From contig CAIKBL010000051.1 in the NCBI GenBank assembly GCA_903825645.1, positions 124,001 through 188,000 on the forward strand: 64,000 nucleotides of DNA. The letters are read 5' to 3'. The stretch comes from an uncultured Pseudomonadota bacterium (GTDB lineage: Bacteria > Pseudomonadota > Gammaproteobacteria > Ga0077536). Below the pieces are notes generated by a model that saw nothing but the letters and a program-made list of their open reading frames with translations, did not search any database and was not told where the DNA came from. The position numbers and the translations under genes are program-made. How positions within the stretch are numbered: the first letter of the stretch is position 1; the number at the start of each line of letters is the position of its first letter. Of this stretch, positions 14,241 through 56,136 are shown in pieces.

Positions 14241-15707
14241 ATGAGTTACGGAATACTTTCTTTCGGGGCGTATGTCCCGTCCTTGCGGCTCGCGCGTTCG
14301 GCCATCGCCAATGGGATGGCGTGGGCAGTCCCCTCCCTGAAAGGGCTGGCCAAGGGGGAGCGCGCTGTCGCGAACTGGGATGAAGATAGCGTGACCCTGG
14401 CCGTAGAGGCGTCGCGGGATTGTTTGCGTGGAATCACCGTTGAACCCGCCCAGATCCAACTAGCGTCGACGACCCTCCCGTTTGCGGATCGCAGTAACAG
14501 CGGTATTGTGGCGGACGCGCTCCTGTGCGCGGAATTCACAGGAACCGAAGATCTCGGCGGTAGTCGTCGGGCGGCGACCAGTGCGCTGGTCCGCTTGGGG
14601 CTGTGTCCCGGAGGCCGCGCGACGTTGCTTATCGCGACCGACTGCCGTGACGCCAAGCCGGGTAGCGTGCAGGAAATGAATTACGGACACGGCGCCGCCG
14701 CACTGCTGGTTGGCGAAGGCAAGCCGATTGCGCTCATCCGGGGGGCCGCGTCGTTTCACGATGACTTCGTCGATCAGTACAGAGCAGCCGATACCGACTA
14801 CGACTACACCCTCGAAGAGCGCTGGATTCGGGAAGAGGGATACAACAAGATCGTACCAAAGGCGGTGTCGGCCGCTCTAATGCATGCAGGCTTGTCGATT
14901 GATGAGATTAGTCGGGTTGTTCTCCCGGCCAACGTGGGGATTGGGAAGGGCGTCGCCAAGGTCCTCAACCTCGCGCCGGAGCGCTTGGTCGACCCAATGC
15001 TCGTCAACTGCGGCGACTGTGGGGTTGCACAGCCACTCCTCATCCTAGCGCATGCGCTGGAAAGCGCCGTTCCCGGCGAAAAAATACTCGTGATAGGCTT
15101 TGGCCAAGGCGCAGACGCGGTGGTTCTGGAAGTCACATCCGAAATTGCCGCATTGCAAAATAACCATGGGCCCGGTCACTCATTGGCGCACAAGCGGGTA
15201 ATCGACAACTACCCCATGTTCTTGTCGCTCCGCAATCAGCTCGACGTTGACTTTGGCATGCGAGCGGAGCGCGATAACCGCACCTCTCAACCCGCTTTCT
15301 ATCGACGTCGCAAAGACATCACTGGGATGGTTGGCGCTCGCTGCACCGGCTGCAAGACGTTGCAGTTTCCGCGCTCAAAGGTGTGCGTGAAATGCGGCGA
15401 AATGGATACCCAGATAGACGAAAGCCTGTCGGGCCTTGTCGGGCGCGTCAAATCTTATACGGAGGACTGGCTCGCCTACACGCCACTGCCTCCGTACATT
15501 TACGGTAACGTTGAATTTATTGACGGCGCCAACTGCATGCTGGAATTCACCGACTTCGCGCCCGGACAGGTTCAGGTCGGCAGTACGGTCAAGATGATGT
15601 TCCGTATCAAGGATTTTGACGCGAAACGCCACTTCCGACGTTATTTCTGGAAGCCGGCACCGGTTCAGGCGTCGTCACGTGAAATCGCATCTGCCGCATC
15701 GGCATGA
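14241..15707 (+). CDS. HMG-CoA-synthase-like protein fused to Zn-ribbon/OB-fold (DUF35)
   Basis: A 488-residue thiolase-superfamily protein. Residues 1 to about 345 resemble hydroxymethylglutaryl-CoA synthase (start YGILSFGAYVPSLRL). About 350-475 is a rubredoxin-like Zn ribbon with Cys368, Cys371, Cys382 and Cys385, followed by the OB fold known as DUF35, which in other systems binds acyl-CoA and bridges HMG-CoA synthase to thiolase. Where HMG-CoA synthases have the catalytic NACYGG, this protein reads TEDLGGSRRA (residues 102-111), so the nucleophilic cysteine appears absent. The thiolase gene follows after 19 bases. A role as a partner or scaffold of the thiolase in acyl-CoA condensation or cleavage is inferred; true HMG-CoA synthesis is doubtful. 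Confidence 0.82.
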   Translation: MSYGILSFGAYVPSLRLARSAIANGMAWAVPSLKGLAKGERAVANWDEDSVTLAVEASRDCLRGITVEPAQIQLASTTLPFADRSNSGIVADALLCAEFTGTEDLGGSRRAATSALVRLGLCPGGRATLLIATDCRDAKPGSVQEMNYGHGAAALLVGEGKPIALIRGAASFHDDFVDQYRAADTDYDYTLEERWIREEGYNKIVPKAVSAALMHAGLSIDEISRVVLPANVGIGKGVAKVLNLAPERLVDPMLVNCGDCGVAQPLLILAHALESAVPGEKILVIGFGQGADAVVLEVTSEIAALQNNHGPGHSLAHKRVIDNYPMFLSLRNQLDVDFGMRAERDNRTSQPAFYRRRKDITGMVGARCTGCKTLQFPRSKVCVKCGEMDTQIDESLSGLVGRVKSYTEDWLAYTPLPPYIYGNVEFIDGANCMLEFTDFAPGQVQVGSTVKMMFRIKDFDAKRHFRRYFWKPAPVQASSREIASAASA

Positions 15708-15726
15708 CACCCAGAGGTAGACCAGA

Positions 15727-16929
15727 ATGGCCAGAGGTATCAGGGACAAAGTTGCAATCATCGGCATGGGGTGCAGCAAATTCGGCGAGCGCTGGGACTG
15801 CGGCCCTGAAGAGTTAATTCTGGAGGCATTCAAGGAAGCCTTGGCGGACGCCAACATTTCGCGTGAAGAAATTGAAATGGCTTGGCTCGGCCTTTTCTTC
15901 CAGGAGCAGAGTGCGGGTAAGTCGGCGCTGCCGCTCAGTCTCTCCTTGCGTTTACCCAACATCCCCGTGACCCGGGTAGAGAATATGTGCGCCACGGGCA
16001 CAGAGGCACTGCGAGGCGCGGTCTATGCCGTTGCCGCAGGCGCCTGCGACATTGCGCTCGCGATGGGCGTCGAAAAGTTGAAGGATACGGGCTATGCCGG
16101 CCTGCCCGAGCGGACCAAGGGGACCTTTGACGATCTCTGGTTGCCCAATGCGACCGCACCCGGTGCCTTTGCCCAGCTGGCCAGTGCGTATGCCGCGAAA
16201 CACCGTCTGAACATGCACGATCTGAAACGCGCGATGGCCCACATTTCAGTTAAAAGCCATGCAAATGGCGTCCTGAACCCAAAGGCACATCTGCGCAAAA
16301 TTATCACGGAGGAGGAGGCGCTGAACGCCGGCGTCGTCGCCTATCCACTCGGGTTGATGGACTGTTGCGGCATCAGCGATGGCGCAGCGTGCGCGATCGT
16401 CACGAGCGTGGAGAAAGCCCGGGAAATGGGCTTAAAGGACGTCGTGGTGGTCAAGGCCATGCAGCTAGCGCCGAGCAACGGGTTTGAAATGTCGAACACG
16501 GGCTGGGATGGCAGCTATCTGCACACCACGCGCGTGGCCGCCCAGCGGGCTTACGCCGAGGGTGGCGTAAAAGATCCGCGGCGTGAAATCAATCTCATGG
16601 AAGTCCACGACTGCTTCTCGGTCACCGAGCTTGTGGTCATGGAAGATTTGGGGATTTCGCCCGAAGGCGGTGCCATCAAGGACGTGATGGATGGCGTGTA
16701 TGATCGGGACGGCGCTGTTCCGTGCCAGGTCGACGGGGGACTGAAATGTTTCGGACATCCCATCGGGGCGACCGGCTTACGCATGGCTTATGAAATTTAT
16801 CTGCAACTGCTCGGACGCGCGGGACAGCGGCAGTTGGGTAGTCCGTCCCTTGGTCTCACGCATAACCTGGGCGGACATCCTTTCCGAAACGTCGCGAGCG
16901 TGTCGCTTTTTGGCCTTCACTCGACTTGA
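15727..16929 (+). CDS. Thiolase family protein (SCP2/acetyl-CoA acetyltransferase-like)
   Basis: A 400-residue thiolase. The nucleophilic cysteine is Cys88 in NMCATGTEA, and the active-site histidine is in GHPIGATG. At the C-terminus the classical second catalytic cysteine region is THNLGGHPF, the variant seen in archaeal and SCP2-type thiolases that work with DUF35 proteins. It would cleave or form 3-oxoacyl-CoA in the cytoplasm. The ATG follows an AGAGG site with 9-base spacing. It is directly downstream of the HMG-CoA-synthase/DUF35 fusion and upstream of an acyl-CoA dehydrogenase, so the operon likely encodes a multi-protein CoA-ester pathway. Substrate unknown. Confidence 0.9.
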   Translation: MARGIRDKVAIIGMGCSKFGERWDCGPEELILEAFKEALADANISREEIEMAWLGLFFQEQSAGKSALPLSLSLRLPNIPVTRVENMCATGTEALRGAVYAVAAGACDIALAMGVEKLKDTGYAGLPERTKGTFDDLWLPNATAPGAFAQLASAYAAKHRLNMHDLKRAMAHISVKSHANGVLNPKAHLRKIITEEEALNAGVVAYPLGLMDCCGISDGAACAIVTSVEKAREMGLKDVVVVKAMQLAPSNGFEMSNTGWDGSYLHTTRVAAQRAYAEGGVKDPRREINLMEVHDCFSVTELVVMEDLGISPEGGAIKDVMDGVYDRDGAVPCQVDGGLKCFGHPIGATGLRMAYEIYLQLLGRAGQRQLGSPSLGLTHNLGGHPFRNVASVSLFGLHST

Positions 16930-16961
16930 ATTTGTCCATTGATTGGAGAGACGTAATTTTT

Positions 16962-18107
16962 ATGCAAACGCAAACATCGCCTTGGGCCACGCCCGATCAT
17001 GAACTGTACCGTGACACCGTGCGCCGCTTTCTAGAGGCGGAATTCGTGCCGCACCGCGAAACCTGGATCGAGCAGGGCTATTGTGATCCGACCGCTTGGC
17101 GACGGGCCGGCGAGGTCGGGCTTCTCTGCCCCGACATCCCAACCGAATATGGTGGGGGCGGTTGCGATTTCGGTTTTGACGCCGTGGTCTATGAGGAACT
17201 CATGCGGGCCGGTATCACCAGCTTCGGCAGTGGCATCCAGAGTATCGTGGCTCATTATCTACGCGTGTACGGCACCGAGGAGCAGAAACAGCGTTATCTG
17301 CCCAAGATGGCACGCGGCGAAATCATCACGTCCATTGCTATGACGGAGCCCGGCACGGGATCTGATCTGCAGGCGGTCAAAACCCGCGCGATTCGTGACG
17401 GAGACCACTATGTGCTAAACGGCTCAAAAACCTTCATTACCAACGGCTATAACGCCGACATGATCGTGGTGGTATGCAAAACCGACCCCAAAGAGCGCGC
17501 GAAGGGCATATCGCTGCTGTGCGTCGACACCCACGATCTGGCGGGGTTCCGGCGCGGCAAGCCCTTGAAGAAAATTGGCCAAAAAGGCCAGGACACCTGT
17601 GAGCTCTTTTTTACGGACTGTCACATTCCCGTCGGTAATCTGGTCGGGATGCAGGAAGGGCAGGGTTTCTTCCAGTTGATGAATCAACTCGGGCGCGAAC
17701 GCCTGATCATTGCCATCTCGGCGGTGGCGAGTATGGAAAGCTGTGTGCGGGTGACCACCGATTACGTCAAGCAGCGGGAGGCGTTTGGCAAGAAAATTTT
17801 CGACTTTCAGACCGCGAAGTTCACGTTGGTGGAATGCAAGACGGAAACCCGTCTTGCACGCGTGTTCGTAGATGACTGCATTCGACGTTTAAGCGACGGT
17901 GAGTTGGATGCGGAGTCGGCCTCGATGGCTAAATATTGGTGCACCGAAAAGGCTTTCGAGATTGCCAATCGCTGTCTGCAACTGCACGGCGGATACGGGT
18001 ACATGATGGACTACCCGATTGCTCATTATTTCACCGACGCGCGCGTCGGTATGATTTATGGAGGCAGCAACGAGATCATGAAAGAGCTCATCTCCCGTTC
18101 GCTCTGA
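16962..18107 (+). CDS. Acyl-CoA dehydrogenase
   Basis: FAD-dependent enzyme (381 residues) introducing a 2,3-double bond into an acyl-CoA. Family signatures are visible: MTEPGTGSDL, the ITNGYNADMIVV FAD-binding segment, YVKQREAFGK and LHGGYGYM. The C-terminal motif is YGGSNEIMKELI, as in long-chain and isovaleryl-CoA dehydrogenases, where the catalytic base is not in this loop. Glu259 (in ASMESCV) sits where those enzymes have their catalytic Glu. The ATG at 16962 is preferred over an in-frame upstream start because a GGAGAG site lies upstream and the family N-terminus begins here. It is the third gene of the operon. Electrons would pass to ETF. Confidence 0.92.
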   Translation: MQTQTSPWATPDHELYRDTVRRFLEAEFVPHRETWIEQGYCDPTAWRRAGEVGLLCPDIPTEYGGGGCDFGFDAVVYEELMRAGITSFGSGIQSIVAHYLRVYGTEEQKQRYLPKMARGEIITSIAMTEPGTGSDLQAVKTRAIRDGDHYVLNGSKTFITNGYNADMIVVVCKTDPKERAKGISLLCVDTHDLAGFRRGKPLKKIGQKGQDTCELFFTDCHIPVGNLVGMQEGQGFFQLMNQLGRERLIIAISAVASMESCVRVTTDYVKQREAFGKKIFDFQTAKFTLVECKTETRLARVFVDDCIRRLSDGELDAESASMAKYWCTEKAFEIANRCLQLHGGYGYMMDYPIAHYFTDARVGMIYGGSNEIMKELISRSL

Positions 18108-18119
18108 GACACGACGCGG

Positions 18120-19619
18120 ATGAAAAATGCCAATCTCTACGATCGCTATGCGGCCCATTTCCCGGCGGCGGCGGTTGAGTTTCTGCGCGACGAAGCCGGC
18201 ACCGTGGTGTCGTATGGAGAGCTGGCGCGGCGCTCCGCTCAGATCGCGGGCTATCTGATCGCCTGTGGCGTGAGCGCCGGCGATCGGATCACGGTCCAGG
18301 CCGAGAAATGTCCCACGTTCATCTGGCTCTATCTGGCGTGTTTGCGCGCAGGGCTCGTTTTCCATCCGCTGAATCCTGCCTACACGGAGGCCGAGCTCGA
18401 TTACTTTATCGGCGATGCGGTTCCCTCGATGCTGATCGGCGACGCCGCCGCCGTGGTGACGTTGGGTGTGCTGGCCAGCCGCTATGCAGTGCCGCGAGTA
18501 TTGAGCCTCGCTACGCTGAACGAAGAAAGCGCGCAATATCCTGCAGACTTTGTCTCGCACGACGTCTCACCGGATACCCTGGCCGCACTACTTTACTCTT
18601 CGGGGACGACAGGCAAACCGAAAGGCATCATGCTTTCGCATGGCAACCTAGCCACGAATGCGGCGGCGCTGACACGCGCCTGGGGCTTCACGACAAGCGA
18701 TGTACTCCTTCATATGCTGCCGCTTTTTCACGTGCACGGACTGTTTATCGCCTTGGGTTGCACGCTGATGTCGGGATCCCGACTCTTGTTCTGTGCCCGC
18801 TTCGATGCGGGCTTGGCGGTACGCCGGTTGAGCGAGGCCACGGTCATGATGGGGGTACCGACGTATTACACCCGTCTCCTCGCCCAGCCGACCTTGACGC
18901 CGGAAAGCTGCGACACCATTCGGCTTTTTACCAGCGGCTCTGCGCCGTTACTCAGCGAGACTTGGCTGGCGTTTAAAAACGCGACCGGACACGCGGTGCT
19001 CGAGCGTTACGGTATGACGGAAACCAGCATCATCGCCACGAATCCGCTGGACGGGGTACGTCGGCCGGGGGCCGTTGGCCCTGCGTTGGCAGGGGTCGAA
19101 ATTCGCATTGCCGATGCAACCGATCAATCGCTGGCCGTGGGTAACGTCGGACAGGTACAGGTACGGGGCAAGAGCGTCTTTCAGGGCTACTGGCGAAAAC
19201 CGGATAAGACGCGGGAGGATTTTACCGCGGATGGCTACTTCAGAACGGGCGACGATGGTATGCAAGACGCGGACGGCTATCTCTGGCTCTTAGGGCGCGC
19301 AAAGGATCTGATCATCACCGGCGGCCTGAATGTCTATCCGAGCGAAATCGAGCAGGTGCTCGATGGGCTGCCCATGGTGCAGGAATCTGCCGTCATCGGA
19401 TTACCTCATCCTGATTTTGGCGAGCAGGTGGCCGCGGTGATCGTGCTCAGACCTGAAGCGGATTGGGATGAAGAGGCCGTACGGGCGACCGTTCGACACT
19501 CCCTCGCCGCCTTCAAATGCCCCAAACAATACCGAATCGCGGCTGAACTTCCTCGAAACGCCATGGGGAAAGTTCAGAAAAACCTGCTGCGCGCCGAGGC
19601 CGCTAACGCCCCGGGCTAA
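18120..19619 (+). CDS. Malonyl-CoA synthetase-like acyl-CoA ligase (MatB family)
   Basis: A 499-residue AMP-forming ligase. ATP motif YSSGTTGKPKGIML, YGMTET, the GYLWLLGRAKDLI hinge region and the catalytic-lysine end PRNAMGKVQKNLLR are all present. The N-terminus (NLYDRYAAHFP) and the LACLRAGLVFHPLNPAY segment resemble malonate-CoA ligase MatB more than fatty-acyl ligases, so malonate or a methylmalonate-like dicarboxylate is the likely substrate; this is by family resemblance. It begins 12 bases after the dehydrogenase stop and closes the operon. Its last 17 bases overlap the convergent ceramidase-like gene. Confidence 0.85.
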   Translation: MKNANLYDRYAAHFPAAAVEFLRDEAGTVVSYGELARRSAQIAGYLIACGVSAGDRITVQAEKCPTFIWLYLACLRAGLVFHPLNPAYTEAELDYFIGDAVPSMLIGDAAAVVTLGVLASRYAVPRVLSLATLNEESAQYPADFVSHDVSPDTLAALLYSSGTTGKPKGIMLSHGNLATNAAALTRAWGFTTSDVLLHMLPLFHVHGLFIALGCTLMSGSRLLFCARFDAGLAVRRLSEATVMMGVPTYYTRLLAQPTLTPESCDTIRLFTSGSAPLLSETWLAFKNATGHAVLERYGMTETSIIATNPLDGVRRPGAVGPALAGVEIRIADATDQSLAVGNVGQVQVRGKSVFQGYWRKPDKTREDFTADGYFRTGDDGMQDADGYLWLLGRAKDLIITGGLNVYPSEIEQVLDGLPMVQESAVIGLPHPDFGEQVAAVIVLRPEADWDEEAVRATVRHSLAAFKCPKQYRIAAELPRNAMGKVQKNLLRAEAANAPG

Positions 19620-20241
19620 TCGATTGTTCGCGTTGCCGGATACTCTCCAGGGCCAGAAAAATGACCGCGCCGTTCAGCAGGTGCCAAAGCCAGTGCGTGC
19701 CGTGGGGCAGGGTGCCGCACCATCGCCAATCGAAAATTCTGGCGCACAGCGAGCCACCGAATAACCACGCGGCGGCCCGGAGCAATCGCCTCGTCGCATC
19801 CTCACGCATGATCACCGCCATGGTGACGAGTGCGCCAAGTACCGGCAAGTAGGCGAGCGAACCGTTCAGTAGCGTCCGCGGCGCCCAGAAATCAAGGCTG
19901 ACCATCGCGCCGGCCAAGAGCACGCAGCCCGTTGCGGCCACGACTTGCGGGTACCCGAGTGCGCGGCGCACGGTGAAATAGAGAAACGCCTGAACAAAAC
20001 AAAGGATGGGCACGACATCGGCCAGTTCCGCCCACGGCGCATGCGTGGCGTGCCAGGCCAGACTGCCGAAGCCAATGGCGTGCGCGAGTCCCCACAGCGT
20101 CCACCACTGGACACTGGACGCTCGTCCCTCGAGGCCGCCGCGCAGCCAACTGACGAGCGCGGCGGCGGTGAAGGCGACGTTGCTATAGGCATTCCAAGGT
20201 TCGAGATAACCCTGGGCCACGAGTTGCTCACAATATTGCAT
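19603..20241 (-). CDS. Ceramidase-family membrane protein (CREST superfamily)
   Basis: An integral membrane protein of 212 residues with about six to seven hydrophobic helices. Conserved family elements are an N-terminal CE....EPWNAYSN, GSLAWHATHAPWAELAD with the Ser, His and Asp of the zinc hydrolase site, and HWLWHLLNG near the C-terminus supplying the HxxxH pair. These match alkaline ceramidase and related CREST hydrolases. In bacteria the substrate is usually unknown and may be another amide lipid. Its stop lies inside the end of the ligase gene (tail-to-tail overlap), and its start faces the MaoC gene, with a divergent promoter region of about 125 bases between them. Confidence 0.78.
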   Translation of the reverse strand: MQYCEQLVAQGYLEPWNAYSNVAFTAAALVSWLRGGLEGRASSVQWWTLWGLAHAIGFGSLAWHATHAPWAELADVVPILCFVQAFLYFTVRRALGYPQVVAATGCVLLAGAMVSLDFWAPRTLLNGSLAYLPVLGALVTMAVIMREDATRRLLRAAAWLFGGSLCARIFDWRWCGTLPHGTHWLWHLLNGAVIFLALESIRQREQSISPGR

Positions 20242-20367: not shown

Positions 20368-20823
20368 ATGCCAGGGCTGTATTTCGAAGAGTTCAAGGTC
20401 GGTCAAATTTTTAAACATCCGATTCACCGGACAGTCACCGAAATGGATAACGTCCTTTTCTCGGGGCTTACCCATAATCCGGCAAGGCTTCATCTGGATG
20501 AAGAGTATTGCAAGAATCACACGGAGTTCGGGCAACGGATTCTGAACAGTGCCTTTACGCTGGCGCTCATGGTGGGGGTGTCTGTCTATGAAACCACGAT
20601 GGGCACCACGGTGGGTAATCTCGGCTGGGACGAGGTGCGTTTCCCGCGCCCGGTGTTCCATGGCGATACCCTCCATTTCGAAAGCGAAGTGCTCGAGCTA
20701 CGGGCATCCAAGTCGCGTCCCCAAAACGGTATCGTGATTTTTGCGCACCGCGGTTACAACCAACGTGATGAGCTCATCGGCGAGTGCAAGCGCACTGGTT
20801 TGATGTTGAGGAAGCCGGCATGA
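20368..20823 (+). CDS. MaoC-family hydratase
   Basis: A 151-residue hot-dog-fold protein of the MaoC/(R)-specific enoyl-CoA hydratase family. It reads close to mesaconyl-CoA or itaconyl-CoA hydratases: GLYFEEFKVGQIF, RTVTEMDNVLFSGLT, the catalytic-type LHLDEEY, VFHGDTLHFESEV and SKSRPQNGIV. It would add water across a branched C5 enoyl-CoA. The ATG has an AAGGGGAG site just upstream; an earlier in-frame start lacks one. The stop overlaps the next start (ATGA), and that next gene is a CitE-like lyase, the usual partner that cleaves the hydrated product. The pairing supports a mesaconate/citramalate or itaconate-type route. Confidence 0.85.
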   Translation: MPGLYFEEFKVGQIFKHPIHRTVTEMDNVLFSGLTHNPARLHLDEEYCKNHTEFGQRILNSAFTLALMVGVSVYETTMGTTVGNLGWDEVRFPRPVFHGDTLHFESEVLELRASKSRPQNGIVIFAHRGYNQRDELIGECKRTGLMLRKPA

Positions 20824-21704
20824 ATATTCTACGTTCCATGCTTTTTGTCCCAGGTGATAGTGAAAAAAAAATGGCCAAGGCGGCGTCTGTTGGCGCTGAT
20901 GCGCTCATTCTCGATCTCGAGGACTCAGTCGCGGCACAACGGCGCCCGTTGGCACGCGAAATGTCGCTGGCCTATCTCAAAGGCGCCGACCGGAGCAATG
21001 GCGAACTGTGGGTCCGGATGAATCCGCTGGACTCCGCGGACGCCTTGCTCGATCTGGTGGCCGTCGTCGCGGGACGTCCAGATGGTATCGCGCTCCCAAA
21101 GTGCGAGGGACCTCATCATGTGCTGCAGCTCTCGAATTATCTCGAGGTGCTCGAGACCCAGTACGGGATCCCGGTCGGCAGCATCGGCATTACGGCGATT
21201 GCAACCGAGACGGCGGCGGCACCTTTCACTTTGGGACAGTACAAAGGCGCGCCAAGGGTCCGGATACTGACCTGGGGCGCAGAAGATTTAGGTGCGGCTC
21301 TGGGGGCTAGTTCCAACAAGGATGAGCACGGCAACTATACGCCGCCTTATGTCTTGGCACGTTCCCTGTGCTTGTTTGGTGCGTACGCCGCCGGCGTGCA
21401 AGCACTCGATACCGTGCAGCCCGATTTCAGGGCATCAGATAAGTTGCTACGGGAATGTAACGAAGGCCGGCGCGATGGCTTCTTGGGCAAAATTGCCATC
21501 CACCCTGACCAGGTGGCGGTGATCAACGAAGCCTTTACCCCGTCGGCCGCTGAAATCGCGCACGCGCAAGCGGTGATCAATGCGTTTGCGACGAATCCTG
21601 AAGCGGGTACGTTGAGTCTTGAGGGCAAAATGATCGACAAGCCGCATCTCAAACAGGCGGAGCGGGTCATGGCCATTGCAAAGCAGGCCGAGGCCCGCAG
21701 ATGA
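20820..21704 (+). CDS. CitE-like CoA-ester lyase (malyl/citramalyl-CoA type)
   Basis: A 294-residue HpcH/HpaI-family aldolase. Key elements are RSMLFVPGDS, the Mg-binding ILDLEDSVA, RMNPLDS, ALPKCEG, and the acidic TWGAEDLGAALGA; the C-terminal IHPDQVAVIN is typical of CitE and malyl-CoA lyases. It would cleave a 3-hydroxy-dicarboxyl-CoA such as beta-methylmalyl-CoA or citramalyl-CoA into acetyl/propionyl-CoA plus glyoxylate or pyruvate. The ATG at 20820 overlaps the MaoC stop and is preferred to an upstream in-frame start. It is coupled by ATGA to the dehalogenase gene downstream. The exact substrate is unproven. Confidence 0.88.
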   Translation: MNILRSMLFVPGDSEKKMAKAASVGADALILDLEDSVAAQRRPLAREMSLAYLKGADRSNGELWVRMNPLDSADALLDLVAVVAGRPDGIALPKCEGPHHVLQLSNYLEVLETQYGIPVGSIGITAIATETAAAPFTLGQYKGAPRVRILTWGAEDLGAALGASSNKDEHGNYTPPYVLARSLCLFGAYAAGVQALDTVQPDFRASDKLLRECNEGRRDGFLGKIAIHPDQVAVINEAFTPSAAEIAHAQAVINAFATNPEAGTLSLEGKMIDKPHLKQAERVMAIAKQAEARR

Positions 21705-22579
21705 CCGCTTGGGTAGACGAAAAAAAGTTTGTCACTGTGCATGGCAGCCGCATGGCCTATGTGGAGCAGGGACAGGGCACCCCTATCGTTTTTCAGCATG
21801 GGAACCCGACTTCTTCTTATCTCTGGCGCAATATCTTGCCCAGACTTGCCCCGTTCGGACGCTGTATCGCCCTTGATCTGATTGGCATGGGCGATACCGC
21901 CAAATTACCGGGCACAGGACCCGACCGATATACCCTCGAGGTTCAACAGCGCTATTTTGATGGCGCGCTGGAAGCGCTGGGTGTCGAGCGCTCGGTGGTG
22001 TTGGTCCTGCACGACTGGGGCACAGCTCTGGGCTTCGATTGGGCGCGCCGACACGCCACGGCGGTGCGCGGAATCTGCCATATGGAGGGGATCGCCATGC
22101 CGCTAGAATGGTCGGATTGGCCGGAGTCTGCTCGCGGCATTTTTCAGACTTTTCGTTCGCCCGCAGGAGAGGATGTGGTGCTGGATAAAAATGTATTTGT
22201 AGAGCGGGTATTGCCGAAGTCCATTTTGCGGACGTTGAGCGAGGAAGAAATGGAAGCGTATCGCGCTCCTTTTCTGCAGGCCGGAGAAGATCGCCGGCCA
22301 ACGCTCGACTGGCCCAATCAAATCCCTGTAGCGGGCCAGCCGCCCGAGGTCTGCGCGACAGTCGAGGCGTACGGGACGTGGTTGAGTCAAACGGCGGTGC
22401 CGAAGCTTTTCATCAACGCTGAGCCTGGCATGATCATGACCGGCCGACCGCGTGAATATGCACGACGCTGGCCGAATCAACGCGAAGTGACTGTGCGCGG
22501 ACTACACTTCATACAGGAAGATTCTCCCGTGGAAATTACCGCCGCGCTGCGCGACTGGCTGGCGAGTCTGCCGGCGTGA
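21701..22579 (+). CDS. Haloalkane dehalogenase, LinB-like (HLD-II)
   Basis: An alpha/beta hydrolase of 292 residues that by family would hydrolyse carbon-halogen bonds to alcohol plus halide. It reads as a close relative of LinB: FQHGNPTSSYLWRNI, DLIGMGD, LHDWGTALGFDWARRH, MEGIAMPLEW and HFIQEDSP. Catalytic residues of the HLD-II type are in place: nucleophile Asp105, base His269, acid Glu129, and halide ligands Asn35 and Trp106. There is no signal peptide, unlike some periplasmic homologues. The start overlaps the lyase stop (ATGA), so it is co-translated within a CoA-ester operon, which is unusual. Natural substrate unknown; a promiscuous esterase role cannot be excluded but the halide pocket is intact. 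Confidence 0.92.
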   Translation: MTAWVDEKKFVTVHGSRMAYVEQGQGTPIVFQHGNPTSSYLWRNILPRLAPFGRCIALDLIGMGDTAKLPGTGPDRYTLEVQQRYFDGALEALGVERSVVLVLHDWGTALGFDWARRHATAVRGICHMEGIAMPLEWSDWPESARGIFQTFRSPAGEDVVLDKNVFVERVLPKSILRTLSEEEMEAYRAPFLQAGEDRRPTLDWPNQIPVAGQPPEVCATVEAYGTWLSQTAVPKLFINAEPGMIMTGRPREYARRWPNQREVTVRGLHFIQEDSPVEITAALRDWLASLPA

Positions 22580-22614
22580 ACTTTTGCTGTGGTTAGCTTT
22601 AGCAGGTGTTATGC

Positions 22615-23031
22615 ATGAATTTTGAAGACATTATAAAGATCGGGACAACGCATCAGGCGACGCTGGTGGTCACCCATGAGTTAACCGTGCAGGCGCGGGT
22701 GCCAGAGCTTCCCCCCGTCTACTCAACGCCAAACATGATTTTGGCTATGGAAGTGACCTGTACAGACTTGCTGAAACAGTGGTTGCCCGCTGGATGGGTC
22801 TCTGTCGGCACCTTGGTCCACGTCCGACATGTGGCTGCCACGCCGGTCGGTTGTCGTGTGCAGTTGACCGCAACGGTCGCGGAGATCTCGAAGGGCTGTG
22901 TGACTTTCGAGGTCGAAGCCCATGATGGGTTTGATTTGATCGGGAAAGGACAACATGCGCGCGCGCCTATCGAAATGGCGCGTTTCTTGGCTGGACTGGC
23001 TAAAAAGCAAGCCCGCATCGCGGGAACCTGA
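22615..23031 (+). CDS. FlK-like hot-dog thioesterase
   Basis: A 138-residue protein resembling fluoroacetyl-CoA thioesterase FlK. The FlK triad (Thr42, Glu50, His76 in that enzyme, from memory) appears here as Thr38, Glu46 and His72, all shifted by four, in VYSTPNMILAMEVT and VRHVAATPVG. The C-terminal EAHDGFDLIGKGQH segment also matches. It would hydrolyse a small acyl-CoA. The ATG at 22615 has AGCAGG 8 bases upstream. It follows the dehalogenase gene by 35 bases, which makes a haloacyl-CoA or other unwanted CoA ester a tempting substrate, but many FlK-like proteins have no link to fluorine. Family call is good, substrate is inference. Confidence 0.75.
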   Translation: MNFEDIIKIGTTHQATLVVTHELTVQARVPELPPVYSTPNMILAMEVTCTDLLKQWLPAGWVSVGTLVHVRHVAATPVGCRVQLTATVAEISKGCVTFEVEAHDGFDLIGKGQHARAPIEMARFLAGLAKKQARIAGT

Positions 23032-23043: not shown

Positions 23044-23862
23044 ATGAGTGTTCACAGCAATAACACCGAAAAAGTGACGACACAGACCTTGAGAAAAATG
23101 AAGACGAACGGCGAAATCATCGCCTCTTTGACCGCTTATGACGCGGCATTCGCGCGTGTTCTCGATCGAGCGGGCTGTGATTTTATTCTCGTCGGCGACT
23201 CGGTCGGGATGGTCGTGCAGGGGCAGTCCACGACAATCCCCGTGACGGTAGACGATATCATCTATCACACCCGCTTGGTGGCACGAGGCGCTACCCGTGC
23301 CCTGATCATGGCGGACATGCCTTTCATGAGTTACCACTCGCCCGCAGATTGCCTGCATAACGCCGCGCGCCTGATGAAAGAAGGCGGCGCCGAGATGGTC
23401 AAACTCGAGTGGGGTGCTTTGCAACTCGACATGGTGGCGCGGCTGACGGAATGCGGGATCCCAGTATGTGCCCATCTCGGACTCACGCCGCAGGCCATCC
23501 ACAAGTTGGGCGCGTACCGGGTGCAGGGGCGGGAGCAGGAGACGGCCGCCAAGATGCTCCACGATGCACGGGCCCTAGAAGCCGCGGGCGCCGACATGCT
23601 GCTGCTCGAGTGCGTGCCCATGGGGTTGGCCGAGCAGATTACGCGCGCAGCCACGGTACCCGTCATAGGTATCGGTGCGGGTCCCGATGTGGATGGCCAA
23701 ATCCTAGTGCTCTATGACATCTTGGATATTGCGCCAGGGAAGCGGACTCGATTTTCGAAGAACTACATGACGGGTGTGGACAGTATCCATGCAGCCATCG
23801 AATCCTATGTCGTGGAAGTCAAGTCCAAGACATTCCCCACCGCTGCTTATGCCTTTCAATGA
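23044..23862 (+). CDS. PanB-like ketopantoate hydroxymethyltransferase
   Basis: A 272-residue TIM-barrel enzyme of the PanB family, which transfers a hydroxymethyl group from methylene-THF to 2-oxoisovalerate in pantothenate synthesis. Conserved parts are SLTAYDAAFARVLD, LVGDSVGMVVQG, MADMPFMSY, HLGLTPQAIHKLGAYRVQGR, LLECVP and VIGIGAGPDVDGQI. The usual VKLEGG metal-site loop reads VKLEWGA, so Gly-Gly is replaced. No panC or panD is adjacent; instead it sits between two thioesterases, and its stop overlaps the TesB start (ATGA). It may be a specialised paralogue acting on another 2-oxoacid. Calling it panB proper would be premature. Confidence 0.8.
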   Translation: MSVHSNNTEKVTTQTLRKMKTNGEIIASLTAYDAAFARVLDRAGCDFILVGDSVGMVVQGQSTTIPVTVDDIIYHTRLVARGATRALIMADMPFMSYHSPADCLHNAARLMKEGGAEMVKLEWGALQLDMVARLTECGIPVCAHLGLTPQAIHKLGAYRVQGREQETAAKMLHDARALEAAGADMLLLECVPMGLAEQITRAATVPVIGIGAGPDVDGQILVLYDILDIAPGKRTRFSKNYMTGVDSIHAAIESYVVEVKSKTFPTAAYAFQ

Positions 23863-24725
23863 ACCCGCGCTTGACGACGCTTATTGCTGGGCTAGCGCTA
23901 GAGAAACTCGAAGAAAACTTATTCCGCGGCGCGATTAGCGACACCATCATCAAGCGTGTCTATGGCGGAAAGGTACTCGGGGAGGCCAGTACGGCGGCGC
24001 AAATGACGGTAGAGGGGGATCGTGCCCTGCACTCGTTGCACGCTTATTTTTTGCGCGAAGCAGATTCGTATGCGCCCGTCATTTACTCGGTAGACCGTAG
24101 TCGCGACGGCAAGAGTTTTTCCGCGCGACGGGTGACCGCCATCCAGCATGGCAAACCGATTTTTACGCTCGAGGCTTCTTTCCATCGAGAAGAGATCGGC
24201 ATCGAATACCAATCACCGATTCCGGCGGTGCCGGCACCGGAAACACTAGAGCCGTTAGTGTGGCACTGGGACCAGTTCGAGACGCTCTCGGCGCGGCAGC
24301 AACGTACTATGAGTATCGTCGCACCCTTTCAAATCCGTGCCATTGACGGTCCGGGCGGTAGCCATGACCACGAGGGACGCCCGGTGCGGCGGGTGTGGAT
24401 CCGGGCCACCGACGTTCTCCCTGATAATCCAGTGTTGCATCGGGCAATGCTGGCCTACCTATCAGACTATGGACTAATCTGGACCTTACTCGCCCATCAT
24501 GGGTTCCAGCTGTCGAATCAACATATTGTCGTCGCGAGCTTGGATCATGCCATGTGGTTTCACCGACCCTTCCGTCTCGATGATTGGTTGCTGTATTACT
24601 GCGAGGGGGTTTCTTCGGCCGGCGCTCGGGGGCTCGCCCGCGGTTCTTTTTATGACCGGGAAGGTAAGTTGGTAGTGTCCGTCGCTCAAGAAGGATTAAT
24701 GCGGGTGATTGACGGCGAGCCCTAA
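23859..24725 (+). CDS. Acyl-CoA thioesterase II (TesB family)
   Basis: A 288-residue double hot-dog thioesterase. The N-terminal half has LEENLFRGAISD and VYGGKVLGEA, the second half HRPFRLDDWLLYYCEG and ARGSFYDREGKLVVSVAQEGLMR, which are the standard TesB signatures with the catalytic Asp/Gln/Thr region. It would hydrolyse acyl-CoA esters in the cytoplasm, releasing CoA. It is the last gene of the CoA-ester operon and overlaps the PanB-like gene by four bases. With the FlK-like protein the operon has two different thioesterases, suggesting release of CoA or clearing of dead-end esters. Confidence 0.9.
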   Translation: MNPRLTTLIAGLALEKLEENLFRGAISDTIIKRVYGGKVLGEASTAAQMTVEGDRALHSLHAYFLREADSYAPVIYSVDRSRDGKSFSARRVTAIQHGKPIFTLEASFHREEIGIEYQSPIPAVPAPETLEPLVWHWDQFETLSARQQRTMSIVAPFQIRAIDGPGGSHDHEGRPVRRVWIRATDVLPDNPVLHRAMLAYLSDYGLIWTLLAHHGFQLSNQHIVVASLDHAMWFHRPFRLDDWLLYYCEGVSSAGARGLARGSFYDREGKLVVSVAQEGLMRVIDGEP

Positions 24726-24780: not shown

Positions 24781-26592
24781 ATGCAGACGGCTGATCGGCC
24801 GAAATTTAAGCGTTTTGAACTGCTATCCAAGATAGGCGCAGGTCTGCATGGTCGGGTTTTCCTAGCATGGGATCCAAACCTAGAACGGAAGGTAGCACTC
24901 AAGATTCTGACCCGTCAGCGCGATACAGCAGCCACGATGGAGCAGTTTTTCGGGGAAGCGCGCGCGGTTGCGCGCGTGTCCCACCCCAATGTCATCCCGC
25001 TTTTCGAAGCGGGCGCCGAAAAAGGCTTGCCCTATCTAGTCTTCGAATATGTAGAGGGCTCGTCCTTGAAAACCTTTCTAGAAACTACCACTCTAGATAG
25101 GGAAACCGCCTGCACCAAGTTTCACGAAATCTGCGTAGGGGTAGCGGCGGCCCACGCCTTGGGGATCGCTCATCTCGACTTATCCCCGAACAATATTTTG
25201 ATAGATTCGCGCGGAACACCGCGAGTCATGGACTTCGGACTCTCGCGCTTTGTGGCGGCCCATCGGGGGGAGAGTAATAGCGAAGAGGATATGCAGGGGA
25301 CACCCCGGTATATGAGCCCGGAACATTTTATCGGTGCCCCCCTCGATATGCGCACCGACGTGTTCGCGCTAGGCCTGATGTTCTTCGAGTTGTTGGCCGG
25401 ACGTCCCGCTGCGAATGCTGCGCGAATCAAAGAGTTGACGAGCCAGTTGCGTAATCCTCAATTTGACTGGATCGCGCTGCAGAAAAAAGAAGTGCCGACC
25501 GAAATCATCAGCGTCATACGGGATGCGTTGGCCCGCGAACCTATTCGTCGGTTTGCAGATGCCGGCGCAATGGCCACTGCACTGCAAGAAGCGATGGAGT
25601 CGATGAAAGCGCGCGAGAACCGGAACTTGGCGGTTCAGTTCGTTTTACGCCGATTGCAGCGCAGGCCCGAGTTTCCGGCTTTCTCCAATAGCATCGCCGA
25701 AATCAATCGTCTGACTGATGAGGATAGTAGGGCCGGTCTCCAAGATCTGGCCGATGTGGTGATGCGGGATTTCAGTCTCGCTAATCGATTGATGAAAATC
25801 GCTAATTCCGCATTCTTTTCGCCCGACAGCAACCCAGCCGGGACCGTTGCTTCTGCCATCTCTCGGGTGGGCACCAAAACAGTCCGGTTCATCTGCAACG
25901 GACTGATGATGTTTGAACATTTAAAGGGTGATTCGCCCGGTCTTCAGGATGCGCTGGTGGAATCGTTCGTCTCTGGCCTGTTGGGTCGGTTGCTAGCGCA
26001 GCAGTTTTCGCCCGAATTAGCCGAGGAGGCCTTCATCTCCGCCATGTTCAATCGGCTGGGGCGCAATCTCGTGCTGTATTACCTCGCCGACGAATACACC
26101 GAGATTCAACAATGCTTTGCCACAGGGATGTCGATAATAGATGCCGAGCGTGCCATTCTCGCCAGCAGCTGCGCCGAAATTGGTGCCGCCGTCGCGGCGA
26201 GCTGGAAGTTTCCGGTCAGCCTGGTCTCGACGATGAAATCTCTACCCCCGGGGGTATTGCCGACGCCAGCGTTCGCCCTTGAGCGAACGCGCGCCTTGGC
26301 GCATTTTCCAAACGAGCTGTGTGCCTTGGTGAGCGGATCGGAGGCGCTGGACGCGCCCCTCGAAAAACTCGCACGCCTCGGAGAGCGATTTGCGCGAATT
26401 TTTCGCACCAACCCCACCGATCTGGCCGCTACACTTGATGTGGCGCTGCGAAAATTTGTCGATATTGCACCCTCGCTCGGCATAAATCCCAAAACGAGTG
26501 GATTTTGTCAAACAACAGGTGAATTTCTAGAGGTCTTCCGCTTGATGCAATCGATGCCACTCGGCGAGCCCGAGTACCGAGTCGGCGCCTAA
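24781..26592 (+). CDS. Ser/Thr protein kinase fused to HDOD domain
   Basis: A 603-residue cytoplasmic signalling protein. Residues 10-275 are a eukaryotic-type kinase: Gly-rich loop IGAGLHGRVFLAW, ATP-binding Lys41 (VALKIL), catalytic loop HLDLSPNN (131-138) and DFG (151-153), with an APE-like MSPEHF. The catalytic Asp133 is present, but HRD reads HLD and the usual Lys two residues after Asp is Ser135, so activity may be altered. Residues about 285-510 form an HDOD domain (QFVLRRLQRRPEFPAFS, MRDFSLANRLMKIANSAFF), a phosphohydrolase-like fold used in bacterial signalling. No membrane helix is seen. It starts 55 bases after tesB. Targets are unknown. Confidence 0.88.
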   Translation: MQTADRPKFKRFELLSKIGAGLHGRVFLAWDPNLERKVALKILTRQRDTAATMEQFFGEARAVARVSHPNVIPLFEAGAEKGLPYLVFEYVEGSSLKTFLETTTLDRETACTKFHEICVGVAAAHALGIAHLDLSPNNILIDSRGTPRVMDFGLSRFVAAHRGESNSEEDMQGTPRYMSPEHFIGAPLDMRTDVFALGLMFFELLAGRPAANAARIKELTSQLRNPQFDWIALQKKEVPTEIISVIRDALAREPIRRFADAGAMATALQEAMESMKARENRNLAVQFVLRRLQRRPEFPAFSNSIAEINRLTDEDSRAGLQDLADVVMRDFSLANRLMKIANSAFFSPDSNPAGTVASAISRVGTKTVRFICNGLMMFEHLKGDSPGLQDALVESFVSGLLGRLLAQQFSPELAEEAFISAMFNRLGRNLVLYYLADEYTEIQQCFATGMSIIDAERAILASSCAEIGAAVAASWKFPVSLVSTMKSLPPGVLPTPAFALERTRALAHFPNELCALVSGSEALDAPLEKLARLGERFARIFRTNPTDLAATLDVALRKFVDIAPSLGINPKTSGFCQTTGEFLEVFRLMQSMPLGEPEYRVGA

Positions 26593-30975: not shown

Positions 30976-31680
30976 ATGAACGCACAACGGATCTTTGATC
31001 GAGCCCGCGCCGACACGCAACCACCGCTTTGCTATCCGCCTTATACCTCAACCGCAAAACGGGCACCGCTGGAGCCCTTGATCCCTATCCCACCTACCGC
31101 ACTGGAGCTAGGATCCCCGCTCGTGCCCCTGCACACCTGTCCGGCGCTGTGTGATCTCACGCAGGCGGGGAGGGCACCGCCACTCGGCGAACGCATCATC
31201 GTGAGCGGTCACGTGACGGACGAAGACGGAAAACCGCTCGTCGGCGTACTTATTGAGCTTTGGCAGGCAAATGCCGCGGGGCGTTACAAGCATCTTCACG
31301 ACACGCACGATGCCCCAATCGATCCACACTTTGAAGGCTCAGGAGCGGTGGTGACCGACGCGGACGGCGCATATCGCTTCATCACCATCAAGCCTGGAGC
31401 CTATCCTTGGCGGAATCACCCGAATGCGTGGCGCCCAGCTCACCTACATTTTTCCGTATTCGGTGCGTGTCTTTTGACGCGCTTAGTCACCCAAATGTAC
31501 TTCCCCGGGGATCCCTTACTGGCGCACGATCCGATTTTCATGAGCATCGCGAATCGGGCAGCACGAGAACGTCTGGTAGCACCGCTTGACTGGAGCCTCA
31601 CCGTACCTGAATTTGGACTCGGTTATCGGTTTGATATCGTGTTGGGAGGGCGGTCGGGCACGCCGGGAGAACAGGCATGA
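30976..31680 (+). CDS. pcaH: Protocatechuate 3,4-dioxygenase beta subunit
   Basis: Fe(III)-containing catalytic subunit (234 residues) that with PcaG opens the protocatechuate ring between the two hydroxyls to give 3-carboxy-cis,cis-muconate. The iron ligands are visible: Tyr in AAGRYKH, Tyr in PGAYPWRN, and the two His in RPAHLHFSV. The LIELWQANAAGRY motif is the intradiol dioxygenase signature. N-terminal residues include RAPLEPLIPIP, typical of the beta chain. The stop overlaps the pcaG start (ATGA). First gene of a four-gene aromatic operon. Confidence 0.95.
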   Translation: MNAQRIFDRARADTQPPLCYPPYTSTAKRAPLEPLIPIPPTALELGSPLVPLHTCPALCDLTQAGRAPPLGERIIVSGHVTDEDGKPLVGVLIELWQANAAGRYKHLHDTHDAPIDPHFEGSGAVVTDADGAYRFITIKPGAYPWRNHPNAWRPAHLHFSVFGACLLTRLVTQMYFPGDPLLAHDPIFMSIANRAARERLVAPLDWSLTVPEFGLGYRFDIVLGGRSGTPGEQA

Positions 31681-32195
31681 GAATGCCGGTAACTGCCGCT
31701 CAGACGGTCGGCCCATTCTTTTCAATCGGGCTAAATGGGCGCCTAGCACCACCGCCCAGACCTCCACAGCCGCTAATGACAGGTTGTATTCGAGACGGCG
31801 ATGGCGCACCCGTGCGGGATGCTGTGCTCGAAGTCTGGACACTGGCAAATCCCCACGCGGTGCACTTTCAGCGAACAGCGACAAATGACGGTGGTGTTTT
31901 TGCCTGGGCACTGGGTGAGGACTCCACAGCGCTCCTCGAACTGACCGGCTGCTGGACCGTATTACTGTTCCTGCGCGGTTTACTCCGTCCGTTGCTGACG
32001 CGGGTGTATCTGCCTTCGCACCTGCCGCCGGCACACGATCTGGTCTGGAGCCGTATCCCCTTAGCGCGACGTGCCACGCTCATTGCACAAGAGATCCCGA
32101 GCGCAGTACCTGCCTATCGTTGGGATATTCATCTCCAAAGCACGCTGGACGGTAGCGCGGAAACGGCCTTCTTCGATTGCGCTTCGGCTGAGTAA
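31677..32195 (+). CDS. pcaG: Protocatechuate 3,4-dioxygenase alpha subunit
   Basis: Partner subunit of PcaH (172 residues), sharing the intradiol fold but lacking the iron ligands. The N-terminal AAQTVGPFFSIGL and the VLEVWTLANPHAV segment match PcaG; HLPPAHDLVW and IPSAVPAYRWDIHLQ mark the C-terminal part. It is shorter than most PcaG proteins (about 190-200), with a compact central region. Start overlaps the pcaH stop by four bases, ensuring balanced synthesis. A second in-frame ATG lies two codons later. The next gene starts five bases after its stop. Confidence 0.92.
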   Translation: MRMPVTAAQTVGPFFSIGLNGRLAPPPRPPQPLMTGCIRDGDGAPVRDAVLEVWTLANPHAVHFQRTATNDGGVFAWALGEDSTALLELTGCWTVLLFLRGLLRPLLTRVYLPSHLPPAHDLVWSRIPLARRATLIAQEIPSAVPAYRWDIHLQSTLDGSAETAFFDCASAE

Positions 32196-32200
32196 CCGCG

Positions 32201-33553
32201 GTGGAACTCTACGACAGCTTGTTCTCCACGCCGGCGATGACGGAATGTTTGTCCGCGCGGCGCTTTTTTCATCATCTGCTGGCGTATGAAGCGGCCTGGG
32301 CGGAGGCGACAGCGGCGCACGGGCTTATTCCACAGACGGCGGCGCAGGCGATCGTCCGATCCTGCCAAAAACCTGATTTTGACTGGGAAGCGCTCACCGC
32401 CGGTGCACGGCTGAGTGGCAATCTTGCGCTCCCTTTTGTGCAGGCATTGACGGCAGACGTCGCGGCGAAGACCCCCGCAGCGGCGGCATACGTGCATTGG
32501 GGCGCCACCAGTCAGGATCTGCTCGACACCGCCTTGATGCTGCAGCTGCGGGAGGCCTTGGCACTCATTGATGACGACGCACGGTCGCTCATCGAAGTAC
32601 TCAGGCGCCTGTGCAGGCAATATCGCGACACGCCCATGATAGCGCGCACCCTGCTGCAGCAAGCCCAGCCGACCACGTTTGGGCTGAAGTTGGCGGGCTG
32701 GTTGGTGGCACTTCACGGGGCTCAGGGACACTTGAAGGCACTATCAAAAACGAGCCTCGCCCTGCAGTTCGGCGGCGCCAGTGGGACGCTTTCGGCATTG
32801 GGGAAAGCAGGTTTGGGCGTCAATGAAACTCTGGCGGGTCGGCTCGATCTAACGGTGCCTACACTGCCCTGGCACGCCCACCGTCAGCGCATCGTCCAGA
32901 TAGGGGCAGGACTCGGTCTGCTGATGGGTACGCTCGGTAAGATTGCCTGTGATCTCTCGCTCATGGGACAAACCGAGATCGCCGAAGCGAGTGAGCCTTG
33001 GCAACCGGGACGCGGGGGCTCCTCCGCGATGCCCCACAAGCGTAATCCGGTCGGCTGTGGCACCGTCCTCGCGGCGGCCATGCGCGCGCCAGGCTTGGTC
33101 GGGACGCTCTTTTCGTGTCTTGTGCAGGCGCATGAGAGAGGACTCGGCGGATGGCATGCCGAATGGGAGACGCTTCCTGAGCTGTGCAGACTAAGCGCAG
33201 GCGCGGTGGCGCACCTGCTGGAGATCTGCACAGGTCTCCAAGTGGATACCGCGCGGATGCAGGAAATTCTTGCCCGGGCCGGTGGGCTCGATGCCGCTGC
33301 CGCGCTGGCGACGGCACTTGCCCCCGTCCTAGGCGGCCGTGAAATCGCCCACGAACGGGTAACCGGCTTGTGTGCCAACGCCCGTGCTACGGGCCGAAGT
33401 GTCCGGGACTGTCTCCTGGCGGAGAGTGATCTGCGTCAAATGATCTCCGCGCCTGAACTGGCAAGAATTTTTGATACTTCTCGTGAGCTGGAGATGGCCG
33501 GGGTGCTCATTGATCGCGCACTCAGGGCTACCGACGAGGTTTTGCTGCCGTGA
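32201..33553 (+). CDS. pcaB: 3-Carboxy-cis,cis-muconate cycloisomerase
   Basis: A 450-residue fumarase/aspartase-superfamily enzyme that lactonises 3-carboxymuconate to 4-carboxymuconolactone. It carries the superfamily signature GGSSAMPHKRNPVGC and the VHWGATSQDLLDTA segment that typify PcaB. It starts with GTG five bases after pcaG and its stop overlaps the pobA start (GTGA). The pathway continues with carboxymuconolactone decarboxylase and later enzymes (PcaC, PcaD, PcaIJ, PcaF), none of which is in this window. Confidence 0.93.
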   Translation: MELYDSLFSTPAMTECLSARRFFHHLLAYEAAWAEATAAHGLIPQTAAQAIVRSCQKPDFDWEALTAGARLSGNLALPFVQALTADVAAKTPAAAAYVHWGATSQDLLDTALMLQLREALALIDDDARSLIEVLRRLCRQYRDTPMIARTLLQQAQPTTFGLKLAGWLVALHGAQGHLKALSKTSLALQFGGASGTLSALGKAGLGVNETLAGRLDLTVPTLPWHAHRQRIVQIGAGLGLLMGTLGKIACDLSLMGQTEIAEASEPWQPGRGGSSAMPHKRNPVGCGTVLAAAMRAPGLVGTLFSCLVQAHERGLGGWHAEWETLPELCRLSAGAVAHLLEICTGLQVDTARMQEILARAGGLDAAAALATALAPVLGGREIAHERVTGLCANARATGRSVRDCLLAESDLRQMISAPELARIFDTSRELEMAGVLIDRALRATDEVLLP

Positions 33554-34710
33554 GAACAGAAGTGGCCATCGTAGGAGGAGGACCCGCAGGCCTACTGCTC
33601 GCACACCTGCTCCACCAGGCGGGGGTTGCCACTGTTGTTCTCGAACAGCGTAGCCGCGAAGCGGTAGAGCACACGATCCGCGCAGGGGTGTTGGAACAAG
33701 GCACGGTAGATCTCCTTGGCGCCACCGGACTCGGTGAGCGGCTCTCCCGTGATGGTGTCGTTCATCACGGCATCGAACTGCGATTTGGCGGGCGTGGGCA
33801 CCGGATCCCCTTGAGCGAACTTACCGGCGGTCGCGCTATCACCCTGTATCCGCAGCATGAAGTACTCCGCGATCTTATCAGCGCAAGATTGGTGGCAGGG
33901 GGCCCGCTGCTTTTCGGCGCCCGCGTCACGCACCTGGACAACAGCCCAGGCAGACTACCCCGCTTGCGTTATGAACAGCAGGGGATCGAGACCACGCTTA
34001 ACTGCGATTTTGTGGTGGGCTGTGACGGGTTCCACAGCATTGTACGCAGCGCTATCCCCCAGCGGCGAGAGTTCCAGACCACCTATCCATTTGCCTGGTA
34101 TGGCATCCTGCAGGAAGGTCCCCCGCTCGCGCCGGAGCTCATTTATACCCATCACGCACGCGGCTTTGCCCTGGCGAGTACCCGGACACCAAGCTTGCAG
34201 CGCCTCTATTTGCAATGCCCCCCTGACACCCAGTCTGAAGATTGGTCGGACGCGCACATCAGGCACGAACTTGGGCTGCGACTCGCCACAGCGGATGGTG
34301 CGCCAATCACCTGTTGTGGAAAAATCATCCAGAAAGATGTGGTCGCGATGCGGAGCTTTGTATGCGAGACCATGCGGCATGGACGCCTGCTGCTCGCGGG
34401 GGACGCGGCTCATATCGTCCCACCGACCGGTGCTAAGGGGATGAATCTCGCCCTTAACGATATTCGTTTACTGGCGCCGGCCTTGGTCAGCGCGGTACGT
34501 CATGGGGATGACCAGCTGCTGCAGCAGTACCCAGCAGATTCGCTGGTTCGGATATGGCGCGCGCAACGCTTTTCGGGGTGGATGACCCGTCTGCTCCATC
34601 AGATGGAGGATGCCGATCCCTACCAGCAGCGCCTTCAACAAACTGAGCTTGAACGCCTCGTCAGCAGCCGAGCGGCCGCGTTGGCGCTGGCTGAGGAATA
34701 TGTCGGTTAA
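33550..34710 (+). CDS. pobA: 4-Hydroxybenzoate 3-monooxygenase
   Basis: FAD- and NADPH-dependent hydroxylase (386 residues) making protocatechuate from 4-hydroxybenzoate. It has the FAD motif VAIVGGGPAGLLLAHLL, the family stretch EHTIRAGVLEQGTVDLL, the internal VVGCDGFHS (DG motif) and LLAGDAAHIVPPTGAKGMNLALND (GD motif, shown here in part). Length matches the 390-residue norm. It starts at a GTG overlapping the pcaB stop. Being last in a pca operon lets one promoter drive the two-step conversion of 4-hydroxybenzoate to ring cleavage products. Confidence 0.95.
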   Translation: MRTEVAIVGGGPAGLLLAHLLHQAGVATVVLEQRSREAVEHTIRAGVLEQGTVDLLGATGLGERLSRDGVVHHGIELRFGGRGHRIPLSELTGGRAITLYPQHEVLRDLISARLVAGGPLLFGARVTHLDNSPGRLPRLRYEQQGIETTLNCDFVVGCDGFHSIVRSAIPQRREFQTTYPFAWYGILQEGPPLAPELIYTHHARGFALASTRTPSLQRLYLQCPPDTQSEDWSDAHIRHELGLRLATADGAPITCCGKIIQKDVVAMRSFVCETMRHGRLLLAGDAAHIVPPTGAKGMNLALNDIRLLAPALVSAVRHGDDQLLQQYPADSLVRIWRAQRFSGWMTRLLHQMEDADPYQQRLQQTELERLVSSRAAALALAEEYVG

Positions 34711-51277: not shown

Positions 51278-51991
51278 CTACGCGCGGGCCAACGCCACGA
51301 GGGCCTTGCGGACCTCCAACACGTTGTTGACCGGACTCTGAAAAGGGATCCGTATGACCTGTTGTCCGACCACCAGGTGGAAGCCGTCGCGATCACAGCC
51401 TGCGAAACTGGGGGACGGCACGGCGCCCGTTACCGCGAGGTGGGGTACACAATATCGACGCATGGCGTCGATATGATCGGCGTTCATGTGCTCGGCCATA
51501 CCGGTTTCTTCTTCGGCCGTAAACGGGTTCCCAGTAAGTACGTCACTCGGTTCAAACCAGTGAATCGCGCCAAAGCCGCCGATAAAACGCAAACGCCGTG
51601 GGTGTAGTCGCCAAAACTGGAAACCATGCGTGCGATCATAGTCGCGCGAGTCGGGAAAGTAGCGGTAGTAACGTTCGGAGGTGTCAGTATCGGTGGTATC
51701 CACCAGCATCGCATCAGCCAGAAGCGTCAGTCGACCGTTTGCCTGCAGATCGTGAGACGTGCGGTCAAACAGAATAAGAGAGACCTTGGGGTCCGCTTTC
51801 ACATTCTTGGTGTGCTGCGCGATGTCTGCAATCAGGATGATCGGATTACCGGCTCGGTCGAGGCAAAATGGTACGACGGATCCGAACGGATATCCGGCGA
51901 CACTGACCGACAGCGTAGACAGAACACCGTCATAACATTTGAGTAACAGTGCGCGGGCTTCTGCGGCGGGGGGAAGAGACGTATCGTTCAT
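51278..51991 (-). CDS. HugZ-like haem-utilisation/PNPOx-fold protein
   Basis: A 237-residue protein with an N-terminal split-barrel flavin/haem-binding domain (ALLLKCYDGVLSTLSV, YPFGSVVPFCLD, ADIAQHTKNVKADPKVSLILFD) and a C-terminal DUF2470 domain (EHMNADHIDAMRRYC). This arrangement is that of HugZ haem oxygenases and related pyridoxamine-phosphate-oxidase-like proteins. Whether this one degrades haem is not visible. It overlaps the MccA stop by four bases, so it is co-expressed with the leucine-catabolic carboxylase, an association with no obvious biochemical reason. Confidence 0.85.
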   Translation of the reverse strand: MNDTSLPPAAEARALLLKCYDGVLSTLSVSVAGYPFGSVVPFCLDRAGNPIILIADIAQHTKNVKADPKVSLILFDRTSHDLQANGRLTLLADAMLVDTTDTDTSERYYRYFPDSRDYDRTHGFQFWRLHPRRLRFIGGFGAIHWFEPSDVLTGNPFTAEEETGMAEHMNADHIDAMRRYCVPHLAVTGAVPSPSFAGCDRDGFHLVVGQQVIRIPFQSPVNNVLEVRKALVALARA

Positions 51992-54018: not shown

Positions 54019-54030
54019 CTTCGTGATCCA

Positions 54031-55638: not shown

Positions 55639-55648
55639 ATCTTAATAG

Positions 55649-55658: not shown

Positions 55659-55679
55659 ATGCTGAATGAGGGTAGACGT

Positions 55680-56123: not shown

Positions 56124-56136
56124 CCGATATATTTAA

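Follow-up and report, generated by a model that had tools for sequence, protein, structure and literature searches.

The catalytic triad of HMG-CoA synthase (HMGCS) consists of Glu, Cys and His. An inactive HMGCS-like partner is already known from the PhlACB complex, where PhlA lacks the Cys and only PhlC is catalytic; the substrate is contacted by residues of PhlC only, yet the activity requires all three subunits, and A, B and C all contribute to the walls of a single cavity (PMC6392133). In the archaeal thiolase/HMGCS complex, as summarised in PMC12329534, a CoA site at the interface is common to both enzymes. Fusions of DUF35 with thiolase-superfamily, SDR, SCP2 and hot-dog domains have been known since 2010 (PMC2954200), and the motifs of the partners are also known, HDCF being that of SCP2 thiolases while the DUF35-bound aldolases carry YDCY (Sal) or YDHF (Ltp2) (PMC12329534).

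The window, that is the whole stretch of 64,000 nucleotides analysed here, comes from an uncultured gammaproteobacterium and contains a single ORF of 488 amino acids at 14241-15707, in which a HMGCS-like domain is joined to a DUF35 zinc ribbon and OB fold. It lies on the plus strand, as do all the operon genes described below, and the initial annotation had placed it and the three ORFs after it correctly. Residues 1-336 (14241..15248) form the HMGCS-like domain, as seen from the alignment, an AF2 model and the fold match, and the DUF35 part begins at about residue 360 (15318..15707). Pfam finds ACP_syn_III_C (213-292) and, over its cut-off, zf-ChsH2 (364-386), while OB_ChsH2_C (396-455) falls slightly below, 21.3 as compared to 27.1. 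The claim that the ribbon Cys368/371/382/385 and the OB fold are kept holds, all four Cys are present and are followed by the OB fold, and 57 of the 66 aligned fusions share the four-Cys pattern. It is absent from the other nine (L019-L025, L028, L046), eight of them sphingomonad, which retain the rest of the domain.

The best solved sequence relatives of the fusion are PhlA (9SKH, 2.8e-25; 5M3K, 6e-24), archaeal HMGCS (6ESQ, 2.9e-20) and MucA (9VBO), and its DUF35 part matches the ChsH2 (6OK1_B) and archaeal DUF35 (6ESQ_E) chains. The AF2 model, a single chain computed from 66 sequences, has high confidence (pLDDT 90.6, pTM 0.92) everywhere but in the final 12 residues, and the modelled residues 1-336 superpose on 6ESQ_J with a Z of 43.4 at 2.1 Å and on PhlA with a Z of about 42. 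The fusion stays under both curated cut-offs for archaeal HMGCS in NCBIfam (PRK04262, 174.5 as compared to 244; TIGR00748, 112.4 as compared to 353.35). Fusions that score on these models below cut-off are easily misannotated as HMG-CoA synthase, which would give wrong calls of the mevalonate pathway. For the window fusion a mevalonate role was rejected, the triad is lost and none is needed since dxr is present in the genome.

To read off the catalytic columns, the window fusion was aligned with 82 related sequences and four references. By this alignment the triad of the 6ESQ HMGCS from M. thermolithotrophicus is Glu82, Cys114 and His238, and the corresponding residues of the window fusion are Thr77, Arg109 and Pro229. 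Residues 102-111 do read TEDLGGSRRA, and the initial annotation was right that the nucleophile seems lost; the loss of Glu and His goes beyond what it had noticed. None of the 82 aligned bacterial fusions has a Cys at the canonical column, where L, T, Q, R, M or V is found instead. The Glu column is Thr in every fusion having a letter there, and the His column is mainly Pro, with His in six. The loss is therefore, as judged from the alignment, complete and family-wide and no local mutation, and a non-catalytic HMGCS-like domain is supported by sequence. In a maximum-likelihood tree a well-supported branch (100/99) parts all fusions from the four references, and the operon-bearing clade of the window forms one group; the root was placed at the midpoint and several branches are long.

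Four residues of the HMGCS-like pocket, T77, D104, E192 and R194, are invariant in the fusions, which is consistent with a retained binding role but could alternatively signal another activity. The domain could for instance still be catalytic, its nucleophile having moved to Ser108 or, in some relatives, to a Cys at that place, and condense acyl groups delivered by the thiolase. Besides the invariant pocket, this would account for the column preceding the canonical Cys, which in nearly all fusions holds Ser (50 of 66; Ser108 in the window) or Cys (13 of 66). The residue at that column also varies to T and A, however, and neither the Glu nor the His of the triad remains, so we consider such an activity unlikely. 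A displaced catalytic Cys as such was rejected, the canonical column being free of Cys in the 82 fusions and the Cys at the preceding column confined to some lineages.

The next gene (15727..16929) encodes a thiolase of the SCP2 or archaeal type, passing the NCBIfam model PRK06157 with 653 as compared to 403. Cys88, reported as intact by the initial annotation, is indeed present, and together with HDCF (294-297) and GHP (343-345) it is invariant in 30 of 30 aligned sequences. The best match is 6ESQ_A, the archaeal acetoacetyl-CoA thiolase (5e-54). The score on the BbsB model is 140, as compared to a cut-off of 750. Another explanation would be that the proteins form a PhlACB-like C-acyltransferase, which moves an acyl group to an acceptor other than CoA, and it is true that PhlA and MucA, both Cys-less, are closest to the A part by fold and sequence. 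The thiolase, on the other hand, is far nearer to the 6ESQ thiolase, SCP2 thiolase and BbsB than to PhlC (1.5e-13), and it is placed among acyl-CoA genes, which makes this function improbable too. That the partner would be a retro-aldolase like Ltp2 or Sal, held by DUF35, is very improbable, for although those systems also pair a DUF35 fusion protein with a partner of thiolase fold, and there are MaoC hydratases nearby here, the nucleophilic Cys and HDCF are invariant and the YDHF or YDCY of the aldolases is not found in any of the 30 sequences.

Among the loci that extend far enough, nearly all have the fusion and the thiolase side by side. As a search starting from the fusion could be biased, 185 genomes of the class were searched with the thiolase only; this gave six places, down to 47% identity, each with the fusion immediately upstream.

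Taken together, the fusion is probably the non-catalytic partner of the adjacent thiolase in a predicted complex of the PhlACB/6ESQ type, with A and B fused and the thiolase doing the chemistry. This is proposed because the nearest solved relatives, PhlA, MucA and the 6ESQ HMGCS, all come from multi-subunit complexes with a thiolase, the pair is adjacent, the thiolase motifs are invariant and the synthase triad is lost family-wide. We infer the physical association from homology and gene pairing, and to that extent the idea in the initial annotation that DUF35 and thiolase imply one complex, as in archaea, stands as a suggestion. In such a complex, the fused protein would replace the separate A and B of PhlACB, or the HMGCS and DUF35 of the archaeal complex. 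The dead synthase domain keeps its predicted fold without the catalytic residues, and the fusion would hold the thiolase dimer and complete a shared cavity for CoA and the acyl group. All covalent chemistry would then take place on the thiolase, with Cys88 as the nucleophile and Cys296 and His294 of HDCF together with His344 of GHP as presumed acid/base residues, and a 3-oxoacyl-CoA would be made or cleaved. A covalent fusion of A and B is without a solved precedent, and the geometry may therefore differ. Speaking against the thiolase scaffold is that the gammaproteobacterial operon has no 3-hydroxyacyl-CoA dehydrogenase for the classic thiolase step of beta-oxidation.

The pair is followed by an acyl-CoA dehydrogenase (16962..18107) that is LCAD-like, as had been proposed, with 2PG0 and mitochondrial LCAD as nearest relatives, and by the ligase taken for malonyl-CoA-synthetase-like (18120..19619), which passes the malonyl-CoA synthase model (665 as compared to 558) and is nearest to MatB 4FUQ. 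The interval 14241-19619 is too short as the full unit, since the conserved gene set reaches about 24725. A divergent ORF (19603-20241) sits between these four genes and the remainder, which begins with a MaoC hydratase resembling mesaconyl/itaconyl-CoA hydratases (20368..20823; the start is set from conservation, the longest ORF beginning at 20299), the nearest solved protein being beta-methylmalyl-CoA dehydratase 8HGN. It is followed by a C-C lyase of the CitE/CLYBL/RipC kind, similar to citramalyl-CoA lyase and matching 5VXC (20820..21704; start likewise putative, longest ORF from 20784), a LinB-like hydrolase of the haloalkane dehalogenase family (21701..22579; NCBIfam PRK03592, 404.5 as compared to 241), a FlK-family thioesterase found with Pfam (22606..23031), and, both by profile matches, PanB (23044..23862) and a TesB-like acyl-CoA thioesterase (23859..24725). 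The LinB-like protein gives 415 bits to 7PW1, and the HLD motifs QHGNPTSSYLW and HDWG are kept in 13 aligned family members. The natural role of LinB-like haloalkane dehalogenases is poorly known, and the conserved operon offers a testable natural setting for one, as well as an unusual home for panB. PanB was considered as a pathway-specific paralogue, but no other panB was found in the genome and panC is on another contig, which makes a housekeeping role the simpler assumption. The operon is followed, at 24781-26592, by a protein kinase-like ORF that also contains what by eye looks like an HDOD domain, and several relatives have a homologue in the same place.

The fusion is found in 22 of the 25 genomes of the window's family (f1), and the three without it are 62-72% complete. 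In most of these genomes the order fusion, thiolase, ACAD, ligase, MaoC, lyase, dehalogenase, (FlK), PanB, (TesB) is kept, and it persists in relatives with only about 45-55% protein identity and in genomes of 2 Mb; exceptions are G009, without the ACAD, and G013, with an insertion. G004b, G011, G014 and G020, with more distant fusions, have the fusion-thiolase pair only. Outside f1 few genomes of the phylum carry the fusion; of 299 sampled it was present in 7, including the window's own. Its loci come from Pseudomonadota, Myxococcota/Thermodesulfobacteriota, Chloroflexota, Spirochaetota and Actinomycetota. Elsewhere the pair is accompanied by LCAD-like dehydrogenases (43-51% identical to the one in the window), SDRs, MFE-2-type hydratases, ligases and CoA-transferases, one of which gives 567 bits on the mesaconyl-CoA isomerase model, under the cut-off of 725. 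In G227, outside the class, fusion and thiolase adjoin homologues of the MaoC hydratase (61-63%) and the lyase (50%), which are found side by side in other genomes too. Two MAG contigs with these genes, L002 and L073, bear the title Klebsiella pneumoniae, which seems to be mistaken; L002 shares 81% identity with the window and falls among uncultured Gammaproteobacteria in the tree.

The locus contexts suggest a metabolism of branched or dicarboxylic acyl-CoAs. The pathway proposed earlier from the neighbouring genes keeps its standing as a suggestion, while the loss of the nucleophile in such a complex is not new, being known from PhlA (PMC6392133). The operon might handle these acyl-CoAs with its ligase, dehydrogenase, hydratase and C-C lyase. 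A more far-reaching and rather doubtful possibility is that the unit of 8-10 genes is an undescribed core pathway of this uncultured gammaproteobacterial family for C-C cleavage, or building, of branched or dicarboxylic acyl-CoAs, where the ligase, dehydrogenase, mesaconyl/itaconyl-type hydratase and citramalyl-CoA-type lyase would work with the thiolase and its CoA-tethering dead-synthase partner, and the LinB-like hydrolase and PanB would act on intermediates. Elsewhere in the window, ORFs at 31677-34710 resemble, by eye, a protocatechuate/4-hydroxybenzoate catabolic cluster, and those at 51988-60274 a biotin-dependent acyl-CoA carboxylase pair, a MerR regulator, a FadB-like protein and an acyl-CoA ligase.

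In the open-access literature we found no description of the fusion/thiolase pair or of the operon. The locus shares with PhlACB (5M3K, 5MG5, 9SKH) a nucleophile-less HMGCS-like A, a DUF35 B and a thiolase-superfamily C with Cys88, encoded together. PhlA has C83, G115 and Q242 at the triad columns, so that the nucleophile is absent as in the window fusion, and by sequence alignment it is absent from MucA (9VBO) too. In PhlACB, however, A and B are separate chains and not one ORF, a CoA donor is not required, and the window thiolase is closer to true thiolases. The archaeal complex (6ESQ) has the same three parts, the closest thiolase and the best fold match for the HMGCS-like part, but its HMGCS keeps the triad and its DUF35 is a separate chain. 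The benzoylsuccinyl-CoA thiolase BbsAB (7PXP) is also a thiolase with a DUF35 partner and a CoA thioester substrate; it has no HMGCS-like part, and the window thiolase matches it less well than 6ESQ_A. In Shy-Sal (9MYR) and ChsH2-Ltp2 (6OK1) a DUF35 fused to another domain likewise recruits a thiolase-fold partner, but the fused domain is a MaoC hydratase and the partner an aldolase with YDCY or YDHF. The type of complex is known, whereas the joining of A and B in one chain and the operon of 10 conserved genes around it appear to be undescribed. In the form of one fused protein that has a conserved thiolase partner, the inactive-synthase design of PhlA is widespread.
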